Below are positions 13,679-56,213 of a stretch of DNA of 64,000 nt, one piece after another (the first letter of the stretch is position 1; every line of letters begins with the position of its first letter). A model generated the notes under the pieces. The model was not told the DNA's origin and did no database searches. It saw only the letters and a program-made list of their open reading frames with translations. This stretch comes from Myxococcota bacterium. GTDB taxonomy: Bacteria; Myxococcota_A; UBA796; UBA9615; JAKLKC01. Location: assembly GCA_023150875.1 (NCBI GenBank), contig JAKLKC010000001.1, forward strand, positions 124,001 to 188,000, read 5' to 3'. The position numbers were made by a program, and so were the translations under genes.

Positions 13679-16600
13679 ATGTCGGTGGAACGGACGCCGG
13701 GTGTGTTCGAACGCGCGGGGCGCGCCCTCGGGCTCGGGGTGGCCCTGGCGACGCTGGGCTGCCAGGGCTCCGCCGCGGCCCCGGACGTCGCTCCCGACGT
13801 GCTCGACTTCCCCCAGGTGGAGGTGGGGGGCGAGGTCACGCTCCCGTTGGAGATCTCCAACGCCACAGGGGCGGACGCCGACTACACGGTGCGCGTGGAC
13901 GAGGGGGGCTTTCCGGTCTTCTCGCTGGTGGGGGACGCCTCGGGCACCGTCGCCGACGGTGGGGACACCCGGGTGTACGCGCGGTTCAGCCCCGCCGCCT
14001 ACGGGGTGGTGGAGTCCAGCCTGACGGTGGACTTCGGAGGCCTCGGCGCCCGGGTGGTGGGGCTGCGGGGGCACGGCGTGGAGCCGGTGGTCGACGGGGA
14101 TCGGGACGACTCCCCCGCCGACGAGGACTGCGACGACGGCGACCCCTCGGTCTACCCGGGGGCCGAGGAGATCTGCGACGGGCGGGACAACGACTGCGAC
14201 CACGCCTCGGACGAGGGCTTCGACGACGACGGCGACGGGATCGGGGACTGCCTCGACTGCGACGACGACGATCCCGCGGCCTTCCCCGGCGCCGAAGAGG
14301 TCTGCGACGGGAAGGACAACGACTGCGATCACCTGTCCGACGAGGGCTTCGACGGCGACGGGGACGGCTACGGCCCCTGCCTGGACTGCGACGACGCCGA
14401 TCCCGCGGTCCACCCGGGCGCGGCCGAGACCTGCGACGGCGCCGACGAGGACTGCGACGGCGCCGTCGACGAGGACCACGACGACGACGGCGACGGGTGG
14501 ACCACCTGCGGCGGCGACTGCGACGACGCCGGGCCGGGGATCCGCCCGGGGGCGGCCGAGGCGTGCGACGGCCTCGACAACGACTGCGACGGCGAGGTCG
14601 ACGAAGAGGAGGACGGCGACGGAGACGGCTGGACCCCCTGCGGCGGCGACTGCGACGACGCGGCGGCTCAGGTGCACCCGGGGGCGGCCGAGCTCTGCGA
14701 CGGTGGGGACGGCGACTGCGACGGGACCGTGCCCCCGGACGAGGCCGACGCCGACGGCGACGGCGTGCGCCCGTGTGGTGGAGACTGCGACGACGCGGAC
14801 CCCTCGGTCCACGGCGGCGCCGCCGAGCTCTGCGACGGCGTCGACACCGACTGCGACGGGGGCGTGTCCCCGGAGGAGGCCGACGCCGACGGCGACGGCG
14901 CCCGCGGGTGCGGCGGCGACTGCGACGACGCGGCGGCGCTGGTGTACCCGGGGGCGGCCGAGCTCTGCGACGGCGCCGACGGCGACTGCGACGGGACCGT
15001 GCCCCCGGACGAGGTCGACTCCGATGGCGACGGCGTGCGCCCGTGTGGTGGAGACTGCGACGACGCGGACCCCACGGCCCACCCCGGGGCGGCGGAGGCG
15101 TGCGACGGGCGAGACGGGGACTGCGACGGAGCCCTCCCCGAGGACGAGGAGGACCGGGACGGAGACGGAGCCCGCCCCTGCTCCGGCGACTGCGACGACG
15201 GCGACGCCGCCGTGGGGCCGGGGGTGGAGGAGGCGTGTCACCCGACGGACGCCGTGGACGACGACTGCGACGGGCTCGTGGACGAGGGGTTCGACGAGGA
15301 CGGGGACGGCGCCACCACCTGCCGGGGCGAGTGCGACGACGCCGACCCCGCGGTCCACCCGGGCGCCGTCGAGGACTGCGACGGCGCGGACGACGACTGC
15401 GACGGGCTCGTGGACGAGGGGTTCGACGCGGACGGGGACGGCTCCACCGACTGCGGCGGCGACTGCGACGACCACGACGCCTCGGTCCGCCCGGGGGTCG
15501 CCGAGGCCTGCGACGGCGCGGACGGGGACTGCGACGGGGCCGTGCCCCCGGGCGAGGTCGACTCCGACGGCGACGGGGCGAGGCCCTGCGGCGGCGAGTG
15601 CGACGACGCCAACCCCGCGGTCCACCCCGGCGCCGCCGAGGACTGCGACGGCGTCGACGACGACTGCGACGGGGTGGTGCCCCCGGACGAGGCCGACGCG
15701 GACGGCGACGGGGCGAGGCCCTGCGACGGCGAGTGCGACGACGCCGACCCCGCGGTCCACCCCGGCGCCGCCGAGGACTGCGACGGCGTCGACGACGACT
15801 GCGATGGCCTCGTGGACGAGGGCTTCGACGGCGACGGGGACGGCTTCACCCCGTGTGGCGGCGACTGCGACGACGCCCAGCACCTGATCAACCCCGGCGC
15901 GGCGGAGACCTGCAACGGCATCGACGACGACTGCGACGGGATGGTGGACGACGGCCTGGCCCCGGACCTCGCCTCGTCCTTCGCCCGCGCGCCCCTGCTC
16001 GGGCGCATCCGGCTCTACACCCGGGCGGGGGGCGCCTGGACGGGCCCTGCGGAGGTGGGTCCCCCCGTCACCGTGGGGGGCGCCGCCAGCGACTTCTTCA
16101 CCGGCCTGGCCATCGCGGACCTCGACGGCGACGGGGACCTTGAGCTGGCCGGCGAGCTGTGGCAGTCGCGCACGGTGCTGGCGATCGAGGTCCGCTGCGA
16201 CGGGTACGCGGCCTGGAGCGTCCTGGACCTGGATCCCGGGGAGGACGTGCGGTTCGCCACCGACGCGGACGGGGACGGCCTGGCGGACCTCGTGGGATGG
16301 TCCGAGGATGGGGCCGGGCTGACCTGGCTCAACGGCGGGGACGGATCGTTCGCGCGGGTGGAGGCGGGCTTCGAGGTCCCATGGGTGGGCGACGACGCGG
16401 CGGGATCGCCCTTCCCGGGGGCCTGGGACGCCACGCCCCGGGACTGGGACGGTGACGGCCTGGTGGACCTGGTCCTGTGCGCCAGCAAGCCCGGCGAGGG
16501 AGCGGAGCGCTACCGCTGCGACGTCTTCCCCGGCGTCGGCGCGGGGGAGTTCGGTACGCCCCAGGCGCTGGTGGAGGGGGACGGGGTGGTCCACGGCCTC

Positions 16601-17285: not shown

Positions 17286-17459
17286 CATGCCTATCCGGAT
17301 GCCACCCAGGGCGGTTCGTGACGACCGCCAGCCGTCATCAATGGCTCGCCGTCCTTGGCTCGCCCACAGAGGCACGGAGCGGCCCGTCCGGGGCCCACAG
17401 AGAACACAGAGAGAAGCGCGGGGAGGCCCGGAGCTTTGGGCGGCAAACGGATAGGCAGT
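17286..17459 (+). mobile_element. MITE-like element copy A (174 bp, 8-bp target duplication)
   Basis: Inverted ends: GCCTATCCGGATGCCACCC (17289-17307) matches the reverse complement of the right end (17438-17456) at 16 of 19 positions. The element is flanked by GGTTCAAG on both sides (17278-17285 and 17460-17467). A second copy of the same 174-base length, about 95 percent identical and in the opposite orientation, is at 25208-25381 with a different 8-bp duplication. The interior contains CACAGAG/CACGGAG and ACACAGAGAG runs and has no credible gene. It occupies the 331-base divergent gap between the 67-aa gene and the aminotransferase. Confidence 0.8.
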
Positions 17460-25207: not shown

Positions 25208-25381
25208 ATCGCCTATCCGTTTGCCGCCCAAAGCTCCGGGCCTCCCCGCCCTTCCCTCCGTGTTCTCTGTGGGCCCCGGACGGGCCGCTCCGTGCCTCTG
25301 TGGGCGAGCCCAGGACGGCGAGCCATTGACGACGGCTGGCGGTCGTCACGAGCCGCCTTGGGTGGCATCCGGATAGGCATG
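25208..25381 (-). mobile_element. MITE-like element copy B (174 bp, 8-bp target duplication)
   Basis: This is the reverse-oriented partner of 17286-17459, with the same length and about 95 percent identity by eye. Its ends are GCCTATCCGTTTGCC (from 25211) and CGGATAGGC (to 25378). It is flanked by GTCCCGAC at 25200-25207 and 25382-25389, an 8-bp duplication unlike that of copy A, so the two inserted independently. It fills the 336-base divergent gap between the glycosyltransferase and TPR-lipoprotein genes, and its last three bases supply an ATG in frame with the lipoprotein. Confidence 0.82.
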
Positions 25382-25393
25382 GTCCCGACCTCC

Positions 25394-26749
25394 ATGACGG
25401 CCCGCGGAGTCCTCGGCATCCTGGCGCTGCTCGTCACCGCGCCCTCGTGCGGGTCGGGGGCACCGGAGGAAGGGGGGGGTGTCGGCCCCCCCTCGGCGGC
25501 CGGCCGCATGGCGCTGGCCCGGGTCCCCGAGGGGGATCCCCGCTTCGCCCGGATCGCCGCCCTCCAAGCCGCCGCCGCGTCCCCGGACGCCACCTCCGCC
25601 GCCTGGGAGGACCTGGGGAGGGCCTTCGTCCAGAGGGCGAGGGAGGACCTGGACCCGGGCTTCCTCCTCCAGGCGGAGTCGGCGTCGGACCGGGCGCTGG
25701 AGCTCTCGCCGGGCTCGCCGCCGGCCCTGGTCCTGCGGGCGCTCGCCCGGATCTCCCAGCACCGCTTCGCCGAGGCGCGGGAGACGGCCCGGGCGGCCAC
25801 CGCCGGCGACGACGCCGACCCCGCCGCCTGGGGAGCCTTGTTCGACGCCGCCATCGAGATCGGCGACGACGCCGAGGCGGTGGCGGCGTGCGAACGGATG
25901 CTGGCCCTCGGCCCCACCTCCGCGTCCCTGGCCCGGGCGGGCTGGCTGGCCTGGCTCCACGGGGACGTCCCGGGCGCCCTCTCCCGGGTCGCGTCGGCGC
26001 TGGAGGCGAGCCGGGCGGCGGGGGGAGAGCCCTTCGCCTGGACCGCCGCGCTCCTGGCCCGACTGCGCCTCTCCTCGGGGGATCCCGCGGGGGCCCTGGC
26101 GGTGTGCGACGAGGCCGCGGCGCGGATCCCCGCCCATCCCTTCCTGCTGGCCTGCCGGGGCCGGGCCCTCCTCGCGCTGGGCCGCCCGGGGGACGCGGCG
26201 CCCCCCCTGCGGGATGCCCTCGCCCTGCAGCCACTCCCCGACCACGCCTGGGCCCTGGGGGACGCCCTGACCGAGGCCGGGCGCGCCGACGAGGCGGAGG
26301 GGGCCTACGCCATGGTGTCCCGCCTCGGCGCCATGGTGGACCCGAGGGCCCTCGCCGCGTTCCTGGCGGCGCGGGGGGAGCGGAGCGAGGAGGCCCTGGC
26401 CCTGGCCCGCAAGGAGGCCGCGACCCGCGACGATCCCTACACCCGGGACGTCCTGGGGTGGGCCCTCTTCCGCGCCGGGCGGCGGGAGGAGGCGAAGGAC
26501 GCCTCGGACCGCGCCCTGGCCCTCGGGACCCGTGAGCCCACCTTCCTGTACCATGCCGGGCGCATCGCCGAGGCCCTGGGGGAGCGCGCCGAGGCGGCCC
26601 GCCTCGCCTGCGCCGCCCTCCCCGTCCGCTCGGGCCTCCCCGCCGCCGAGGCCGCGGACCTCGCGGCGATGCTGCCTCGGGTCGCGCGCGGCGGATCCTG
26701 CCCGCCCGCAGCCAGCACCGCCGGGACCCCGGGCACGAGGACGAGATGA
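25394..26749 (+). CDS. TPR-repeat lipoprotein
   Basis: 451 aa from ATG 25394. An in-frame ATG at 25379 lies inside the MITE-like element and adds five residues. The signal peptide MTARGVLGILALLVTAPSC carries a lipobox-like end (Cys19), followed by GSGAPEE. The rest is a long array of about eight tetratricopeptide-type helix pairs (AWEDLGRAFVQRAREDL, LVLRALARISQHRFAEA, AWALGDALTEAGRADEAEGAY, LGWALFRAGRREEAKDA). Its stop overlaps the HupE start as ATGA, so the two are probably translated together. It may scaffold HupE or another periplasmic partner. Confidence 0.82.
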   Translation: MTARGVLGILALLVTAPSCGSGAPEEGGGVGPPSAAGRMALARVPEGDPRFARIAALQAAAASPDATSAAWEDLGRAFVQRAREDLDPGFLLQAESASDRALELSPGSPPALVLRALARISQHRFAEARETARAATAGDDADPAAWGALFDAAIEIGDDAEAVAACERMLALGPTSASLARAGWLAWLHGDVPGALSRVASALEASRAAGGEPFAWTAALLARLRLSSGDPAGALAVCDEAAARIPAHPFLLACRGRALLALGRPGDAAPPLRDALALQPLPDHAWALGDALTEAGRADEAEGAYAMVSRLGAMVDPRALAAFLAARGERSEEALALARKEAATRDDPYTRDVLGWALFRAGRREEAKDASDRALALGTREPTFLYHAGRIAEALGERAEAARLACAALPVRSGLPAAEAADLAAMLPRVARGGSCPPAASTAGTPGTRTR

Positions 26750-54731: not shown

Positions 54732-55484
54732 ATGCCCGCCCGCCAGACCACACTCCTCCTCACCCTCCTCGCCCTCGGACTCACCGCCGTCGCCCTCGCC
54801 GCGCCGGACCCCGCCGTCGGGGGTCCCCCGCCCTCCGCGGCGCCGGTGTCGGAGGACGCCGGCGGCCCCGGTTCGCCCCCCCTGGAGGAAGGGCCCGGCG
54901 ATCAGGGATTCCCGCCCGGACCCGCCGCGGGCACCCCTCCGGCCCTTCCCCCCGGACCCGGGGACCTGCGGTTGACGGAGGTGATGCCGGACCCCGCCTG
55001 CGTGCCCGACGCCGAGGGGGAGTGGATCGAGCTGCACAACTCCACCGACCACCCGTTGGACCTGTCGGGCGTCCTGGTGGGGGGGAAGAGGGACCGCGCC
55101 CTGCCCCTCGCCTCGGGCTCCCTGGAGCTGGCCCCGGGTGCCTACCTGCTCGCCGGCAGGAGCGAGGTCGGCGGCGCGGCCGGAGCCCCCGTGGACGTCG
55201 TGCTCCCCCGCATGGTGCTCGGCAACCGCAACGGACGGATCGCCCTGTGGCTTCGGGACGTCGAGATCGACGCCCTCGCCTACGGGGAGGACGCCGGGCT
55301 CGACGTGGTCCGGGGCAGGGCGCTGGCCCTGGACCCCGCCGGCCACCTGAACGGAGGGAGCGTCGCCGACGGGGGGTGGTGCCAGGCCCCCACCCGCCTC
55401 CGGGGCCCGTGCGGCGACCACGGCTCGCCGGGCCGGGCGTCGGTACCCTGCCCCCGGCGGGCTCGCGGGGCGGGCCGGCGATGA
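54732..55484 (+). CDS. Secreted lamin-tail-domain (LTD) protein
   Basis: 250 aa from ATG 54732, directly after GGAGACCGGAG. A signal peptide (TTLLLTLLALGLTAVALAAP) is followed by a Pro/Gly-rich spacer. The LTD fold then spans about 75-195: LRLTEVMPDP, GEWIELHNSTDHPLDLSGVLV, LELAPGAYLLAGRS, VVLPRMVLGNRNGRIALWL, VEIDALAYGED. Bacterial LTDs are immunoglobulin-like modules on secreted proteins, often near nucleases, but no catalytic domain is present here. The tail is basic (CPRRARGAGRR). It lies between a kinase on the other strand and a MITE-like element. Confidence 0.85.
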   Translation: MPARQTTLLLTLLALGLTAVALAAPDPAVGGPPPSAAPVSEDAGGPGSPPLEEGPGDQGFPPGPAAGTPPALPPGPGDLRLTEVMPDPACVPDAEGEWIELHNSTDHPLDLSGVLVGGKRDRALPLASGSLELAPGAYLLAGRSEVGGAAGAPVDVVLPRMVLGNRNGRIALWLRDVEIDALAYGEDAGLDVVRGRALALDPAGHLNGGSVADGGWCQAPTRLRGPCGDHGSPGRASVPCPRRARGAGRR

Positions 55485-55550
55485 GGCCGCGGACGGGGGG
55501 CGGAGATTCCGGCTCGGACCCCGGGATGACCGCGTCCCGAGGGCCCTCAG

Positions 55551-55726
55551 CCCGGGTTATTCACCAGACCCCGTCGCGAGCGGGCGGAGACCGCGAGCGA
55601 GGCCGGGACTCGCAGGGTGGAGCGAGGGAAGGCGGGGTGAACCCCGTCGACCGAGCGGAACCCGAGCAGACCGGCCGCAGCCGCGGGATCGGCACGCGCA
55701 GCAGGGCGGATGGTGAGTAACCCGGG
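55551..55726. mobile_element. MITE-like element, 176 bp, with CTCAG duplication
   Basis: The ends CCCGGGTTATTCACCA (55551-55566) and TGGTGAGTAACCCGGG (55711-55726) are inverted copies with 15 of 16 matches. Both are flanked by CTCAG (55546-55550 and 55727-55731). Its interior has no credible gene. The right-hand duplication contains the stop codon of cytidine deaminase, so the insertion hit the very end of that gene and kept the stop. A 5-bp duplication and CC-ends would suit an IS1380-type source, from memory. Confidence 0.7.
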
Positions 55727-55727
55727 C

Positions 55728-56213
55728 TCAGCCGCCGCGGACCGGGTGGCGGGGCAGGACGCTCGGGTCGAATGCGTCGGGGAGGATGTCGCGGATCCGG
55801 GTGTACCGCGCCTCGCCGTCCCGGGTGACGAGGGCGATCTCGGCGTCGGGGCCGAACTCGTGGATGACCTGGCGGCAGGCCCCACACGGGGACACGGGCC
55901 GCGCCGTCTCCGTCACCAGGGCAAGGTGGGTGAGCGCCCTCTCGCCGTGGTGCACCGCCGAGAACACCGCGAGGCGCTCGGCGCAGAGGGTGAGGCCGTA
56001 GGACGAGACCTCGACGTTGGCCCCGGTGTAGATCCTGCTGGCGGCGGCCACGGTCGCCGCGCCTACGCGGAAGCCGGAATATGGCGCGTAGGCCGCCTCC
56101 ATCGCGCTCCGGGCCGCGGCGATCAGCGCCTCCCAACGCCCGGCGTCCGGAGGGGACCCGGGGATGGCCGCGACGGCACCGGAGTCCCCCTCACGGCCTC
56201 GCGCCCGACTCAA
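55728..56213 (-). CDS. cdd: Cytidine deaminase
   Basis: 161 aa from TTG 56213, whose TTGA overlaps the stop of the purine nucleoside phosphorylase gene; no in-frame ATG precedes the family N-terminus. The enzyme turns (deoxy)cytidine into (deoxy)uridine. The zinc site is complete: Cys77-Ala-Glu79 in LCAERLAVFSA, and Cys110 and Cys113 in SPCGACRQV. AAYAPYSGFRVGAA is the typical start. The first 25 residues before it are extra and may not be translated. It is the last gene of the deoC-deoA-PNP-cdd operon, and a MITE-like element abuts its stop. Confidence 0.93.
   Translation of the reverse strand: MSRARGREGDSGAVAAIPGSPPDAGRWEALIAAARSAMEAAYAPYSGFRVGAATVAAASRIYTGANVEVSSYGLTLCAERLAVFSAVHHGERALTHLALVTETARPVSPCGACRQVIHEFGPDAEIALVTRDGEARYTRIRDILPDAFDPSVLPRHPVRGG

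Follow-up and report, generated by a model that had tools for sequence, protein, structure and literature searches.

The window, a stretch of 64,000 nucleotides from a Myxococcota bacterium, carries a short insertion at the 3' end of a cytidine deaminase gene (cdd) on its minus strand (Table 1). At 55546-55731, an element of 176 bp (55551-55726) is enclosed by two copies of CTCAG, and its left end CCCGGGTTATTCACCA and the reverse complement of its right end, CCCGGGTTACTCACCA, are identical at 15 of 16 positions. Under an independence model with separations of 50-400, such an arm pair combined with a 5-bp direct repeat is expected about 0.015 times per 64 kb. The element has no transposase gene of its own, and only mechanical ORFs of neighbouring frames span it. 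A sequence-only reading had described this insertion with its inverted ends and direct repeats, and had placed the cdd TGA within the right CTCAG; both descriptions are borne out, and the gene product is recognised as a cytidine deaminase by PF00383. Since the stop codon lies within the target, it predates the insertion and was duplicated. The convergent ORF on the other side received no identity from any of the searches made.

Table 1. Features of the insertion and its flanking genes in the window.
Feature	Position	Strand	Basis
Target duplication CTCAG, left copy (5 bp)	55546..55550	+	Sequence
Left terminal inverted repeat CCCGGGTTATTCACCA	55551..55566	+	Sequence; 14/16 vs resident IS1380 end CCCGGGTTATTCATGA
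Non-coding core, prolongs the foldback rod	55567..55710	+	Fold energy vs shuffles
Apical motif GAGGGAA-stem-loop-GACCGAG	55624..55655	+	Pattern match
Right terminal inverted repeat TGGTGAGTAACCCGGG	55711..55726	+	Sequence
Target duplication CTCAG, right copy, contains cdd stop	55727..55731	+	Sequence, gene calls
TGA stop codon of cdd	55728..55730	-	ORF and gene calls
cdd, cytidine deaminase (start according to own gene caller)	55728..56102	-	PF00383, E 2.3e-17
Convergent ORF, left intact, stops 61 bp ahead of left CTCAG	54732..55484	+	Gene caller

A genome-wide search, which the sequence-only reading had named as a check, revealed other copies: BLAST of the own genome with the element gave 14 rows at E<=1e-4, corresponding to 12 places. 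Three of these hold the full 176 bp between perfect duplications, namely CTCAG in the window, TTGAA at C38 and TTCAA at C118. Because these perfect 5-bp duplications differ from each other, the element is a genuinely transposed MITE, and the proposed 5-bp target duplication is confirmed. Two longer forms (C66 and C165) are extended by approximately 116 bases around position 83; C66 is flanked by CTGAG and CTCAG, hence by no true duplication, and C165 misses its right end. Four further copies run to contig edges (C167, C42, C130 and C170) and three are truncated (C171, C128 and C55), with ATCAG as the flank of C128. In addition, an end-pattern search of the own genome identified two solo ends (C88 and C90) and, at the edge of contig C96, an end of 17 bases. 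The whole element is absent from all 57 other genomes searched, which belong to the same order and class and of which the nearest represent other families of the same order. Short partial matches were observed in 8 of 58 genomes (own genome included) and mostly reflect ordinary GC-rich similarity. The exception is G004 of the same order, in which L041:1450-1613 and L047 carry another foldback repeat, similar in its apex and with inverted ends around GAGCAGATGAC. BLAST against plasmids and phages gave no matches, and no exact 24-mers of the element were found in viral contigs.

Several observations link the element to the IS1380 family (PF13701, NF033539), with which it shares ends of the type CCCGGGTTATTCA, the 5-bp duplication and a resident transposase fragment. 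The own genome has two PF13701 matches, at C104 and C147, each partial. At C104:1-486, a 161-aa fragment corresponds to the C-terminus of an IS1380 transposase (PF13701, 48.2 bits, cut-off 34.7); its score against NF033539 (E 5.5e-19, 68.1 bits) is under the 180-bit whole-protein cut-off because it is only a fragment. About 200 bp past this C-terminus lies the end CCCGGGTTATTCATGA, which matches the MITE end at 14 of 16 positions and is flanked by TTTAG. More right ends of the resident IS1380 are present at C101 (CTTAG), C38:3639 (GTAAA) and C19, and at all four places the end includes an inner inverted copy of itself, resulting in a 50-bp palindrome. The C147 fragment (L054:1424-1873) is a decayed N-terminal part of an IS1380 transposase containing an internal TGA. 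At C40 (L050:1337-1386), two head-to-head IS1380 ends form a solitary near-perfect palindrome of 50 bp, flanked by CTGAA and TTTAT. Related elements occur elsewhere in the class: a complete IS1380 with TTGAA on both sides is present in G031 (L070:946-2704, 1,759 bp, ends 13/15), and in G018 a contig begins exactly at the end of an IS1380 element (1-1587, 1,587 bp) with the flank TTGAG. A pattern scan of four genomes gave similar ends with flanks including CTTAA, TTAAG, TTCAG, CTTAC, ATCAC and GTTAC; the YTNAR flank was built into this pattern with two mismatches allowed, so that the scan only weakly supports a T-N-A core.

Target duplications of the IS1380 family are 4-5 bp long, a length seen in all three full copies and not in the long form C66. 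As in an IS1380-mobilised MITE, a transposase gene of its own is lacking, the ends are IS1380-like and transposase fragments are present in the genome. The IS1380 assignment already suggested for the element is thus supported by the other copies, the matching resident end and the relative in G031 with its 5-bp duplication. A resident DDE transposase of this family would recognise the ends, target a 5-bp palindrome-like site YTNAR with the core T-N-A, duplicate it and move the non-autonomous MITE in trans. The whole explanation, in which a MITE moved by IS1380 enters T-N-A targets, survives in stop codons and carries a paired interior, is given a probability of roughly 0.8. On the other side, the own assembly holds no complete IS1380, the IS ends are located at contig edges or close to them, and the transposase activity is putative. 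The MITE also differs from IS1380 elements in its size and in lacking any part of a transposase gene; its interior is unrelated to that of the IS, the likeness being confined to the ends, and the 50-bp palindrome of the resident right end is missing from it.

The position of the cdd insertion, on a stop codon, is shared by most other checkable copies. At each junction, it was determined whether the stop of the called gene falls inside the target repeat, using a home-made, codon-usage-based gene caller trained on own-genome sequence. Sites were regarded as checkable when a flank is present from which T-N-A would read as a stop, and at 8 of these 10 sites the stop codon lies inside the repeat: the window, C118, C167, C66 (on both sides, with convergent genes), C42, C165, C88 and C90. 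C38 and C128 are checkable and off a stop. Five places were left out of this count (C171, C130, C170, C96 and C55); among them, C171 and C130 are near a gene end, with the stop 41 and 12 bp ahead of the end of the repeat, and C170 leads into an open frame. The junction genes include, according to Pfam, cdd and genes for a PIN-domain protein, a TPR protein, a protein kinase and a lysine-decarboxylase-like protein, while 4 of the 10 junction proteins searched had no Pfam match. Truncation of the junction genes by the insertion was considered and rejected for the subset with complete domains (cdd, PIN and lysine-decarboxylase-like). The hit had been called harmless and an instructive case; harmless it is, as the cdd domain is complete, and rather than a single case it is typical at 8 of 10 sites.

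A survey of 464 kb of the own genome provided the expectation for these counts. YTSAR sites are distributed over coding sequence (960), stops (69) and other positions (137), and CTSAG sites over 268, 43 and 48, respectively. Stops therefore make up 0.059 of all YTSAR sites, 0.335 of the non-coding YTSAR sites and 0.473 of the non-coding CTSAG sites. Compared with random insertion, 8 of 10 has a p value of 6e-9 to 1.5e-6, and compared with the non-coding share 0.0035 (YTSAR) or 0.038 (CTSAG). When the solo ends are left out (C88 and C90), 6 of 8 remain (p 0.02 for YTSAR, 0.11 for CTSAG). On one strand, T-N-A is a TGA or a TAA, so that a hit in a gene's own stop duplicates this codon and leaves the protein unchanged. 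In a genome of 74% GC, stop codons form a large share of the non-coding target sites, because of which surviving insertions would accumulate there. The simplest reading is that harmless insertions into a T-N-A target survive, and loss of gene-breaking hits accounts for most, not clearly all, of the residence at stop codons. An excess of stops beyond survival may remain, and it rests on the home-made gene caller.

The apex of the element has a wider distribution than its ends. The motif GAGGGAA-[12-24]-GACCGAG has one match in the window (0.01 expected) and 13 in the own genome (control 0), and it is found in multi-copy hairpins with differing stems and ends: the 176-bp MITE, a 221-bp family, and repeats in G014, G277 and G053. 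In G014, 24 of 26 matches are one hairpin within a 230-bp element with ends CTAGCAGCCTGTCGGAGAT; in G277, 13 of 15 are alike (165 bp, ends TAGCCCGCATATCTCACC); and the six in G053 represent at least two stem versions. Reversed-pattern controls gave 0, 0, 2 and 0 matches in G000, G014, G277 and G053, respectively. A degenerate apex pattern had at least one match in 197 of 377 genomes. Because its reversed control was common too, single apex hits carry no weight, and the evidence is limited to the multi-copy hairpins in G000, G014, G053 and G277. G041, G012 and G234 were dropped as apex carriers, as their inserts look unrelated on inspection; G241 has a repeated insert at an apex-pattern match and G330 one hairpin-like match. 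A covariance model of the apex, run on 71 genomes, recovered four own places and weak matches in G036, G014 and G006 (E 0.006-0.009), of which on inspection only those of G014 sit in a clear repeat.

The 221-bp family was revealed by the apex-motif search of the own genome and is an unrelated foldback MITE with eight matches, seven of them with both ends (for example L298:1386-1606). Its ends are GAGTCG[GA]ACACG, and its flanks are TCA on the right in all eight, and TCA (5/7) or TCG (2/7) on the left. The TGA of a called gene lies exactly at the right junction in 7 of 8 (p 0.0006-0.0027 compared with non-coding TGA, YTGA and YTGAR sites, 0.025 compared with CTGAG). For both families combined, the stop excess has a p value of 0.0008, or 0.002 with the strict subset of the 176-bp family. 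Truncation of junction genes by the 221-bp insertion was rejected for the inspected cases L303 and L304, where the two flanking proteins look unrelated by reading. The apex may have become common through descent of the module, through swapping or because a stable motif of tandem G.A steps was reached more than once, the data fitting all three. A bolder and quite unlikely view is that of a class of foldback MITEs specialised for stops, in which families whose ends and transposases are unrelated have one apical module with two tandem G.A steps in common, and two of these families home to the TGA of genes in this genome; selection would act on this module as RNA or single-stranded DNA, MITEs would exchange it or arrive at it repeatedly, and the elements would serve as mobile 3' ends.

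The + strand of the 176-bp element folds end to end with -113.9 kcal/mol (z -8.05; equalled by 0 of 200 shuffles), and the minus strand with -95.4 kcal/mol (z -5.10). Pairing was evaluated in six aligned copies, three complete and three partial, with C66 and C165 excluded. All 202 countable cells are paired, compared with 31-42% in slid-structure controls. Both sides have changed at five pairs (10 cells), which was reached by 0 of 500 shuffles; the count of both-side-changed pairs alone is not above shuffles (207/500), because only two stem versions exist, one in the window and C167 and one in C38 and C118, both clean. The long copy C66 adds three further double changes, yet has five broken pairs, and in the decayed copy C165, 12 pairs are neither Watson-Crick nor G-U. 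Apart from these two copies, variants on the + strand give G-U at six pairs and A-C at none, and those of the 221-bp family give 10 and 5 (sign tests for G-U over A-C: 0.031 for 6/6 and 0.027 for 16/21), a mild sign that the + strand matters as a single strand. No terminator-like T run or intrinsic terminator was found in 55350-55900, and an Rfam covariance-model scan gave no matches at E<=1. The interior forms a foldback rod, and compensating changes hold its apex in the paired state. A structural constraint on it as a single strand, either 3' UTR RNA or DNA, is most probable, and its predicted effect on the 3' end is mild at most.

Other explanations differ considerably in how well they fit these data. 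A plain conserved RNA or terminator that does not move, which the sequence-only reading had set against a mobile element, would agree with the strong fold and the compensating changes. It is refuted by the perfect 5-bp duplications, different in each case, around copies at unrelated sites, and the whole element is missing from 57 related genomes; this makes it extremely improbable. The structure is indeed conserved, and the opposition between structure and mobility does not hold, the element being both. Quasipalindrome correction, a known process in which repair is templated by a hairpin, could generate the paired double changes without structural selection. The two clean stem versions fit such a process, and it is a tentative alternative of some weight; however, it is opposed by the preference for G-U on the + strand in both families and by the flanking motif GAGGGAA/GACCGAG, which stays constant while the stems vary.

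Residence at stops could also result from active targeting or positive selection, with the hairpin behind the stop kept for 3'-end formation or mRNA stability. The location precisely at the stop, not just anywhere in the 3' region, in 8/10 and 7/8 insertions of the two families and the excess over non-coding sites (p 0.0006-0.038 separately) speak for this, but a terminator-like T run is absent, the 176-bp family has no clear orientation bias to the gene and abuts stops with either end, and the null comes from 464 kb of sequence analysed with a home-made gene caller, with p 0.11 in the strictest test. Targeting or selection is considered unlikely. As to the enzyme, IS5/IS1031-like elements likewise use TNA targets, and a different, unseen transposase of such a type might move the MITE, the 14/16 match to the IS1380 end then being a coincidence. 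An intact IS1380 is missing from the assembly, and the second MITE family, with its TCA flanks and GAGTCG ends, represents another TNA-type system in the genome. Nevertheless, the end match is accompanied by like flanks (TTTAG and CTTAG) at the IS1380 ends, and a complete IS1380 relative has TTGAA on both sides, which leaves a different transposase decidedly improbable and mobilisation by IS1380 preferred.

Comparable elements have been described in other bacteria. As far as the consulted part of a review on prokaryotic MITEs goes, stem-loop transcripts, an intergenic preference and possible roles as terminators have been reported (PMC10969869); the terms 'stop codon' and 'IS1380' do not occur in its text. 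The Chunjie MITE of Geobacter uraniireducens is likewise short and multi-copy (178-235 bp) and, according to the title of a paper cited there, entered an operon without disturbing it (PMC10969869). It belongs to another host and is compared by description only, and the portion of the source available gives no stop-codon rule (PMC10969869). QMITE2 of Coxiella burnetii, as summarised there, is similar in size (~190 bp) and in a whole transcript predicted to fold (value -113.09), but differs in its 7-9 bp repeats and its host, and the likeness implies no relation (PMC10969869). Choice of a target is also coupled to a stop codon in ISPsp10, where, from the excerpt consulted, the target TAA completes the transposase gene, whereas in the 176-bp MITE the target TGA preserves the host gene (PMC4133298). 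A parallel case of a MITE assigned to an IS through its ends and duplications appears in the accessible part of PMC6382973. In the open-access literature, no report was found of MITEs at stop codons, of compensatory MITE structure or of shared MITE interiors, and a search on palindrome-associated elements in Geobacter gave nothing usable.

The mechanism itself is ordinary; less ordinary are the systematic residence at stops in two MITE families and the shared structural apex. What appeared to be one lucky hit becomes a testable rule: transposases with a T-N-A core target can occupy stops at no cost, as the stop is restored by the duplication, and such elements may have in stop codons a main refuge within GC-rich genomes. 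If the selection on the apex is real, one functional hairpin is carried by MITEs of different transposases, and this would newly hint at why bacterial MITEs retain their interiors.

The window also contains other repeats. A pair of 171-174 bp, located at 25211-25381 and, inverted, at 17286-17456, is 96% identical over 171 matched bp and has ends ...GGATAGGCATG; as had been noted, the 176-bp element is unrelated to it, with zero matches in a BLAST of the window against itself. In the copy at 25211, the ATG at 25379-25381 is the called start codon of the gene at 25379-26749, and this copy thus abuts a start, not a stop. A tandem array of ~132-bp units, with 11 register copies, occupies 14303-16081.
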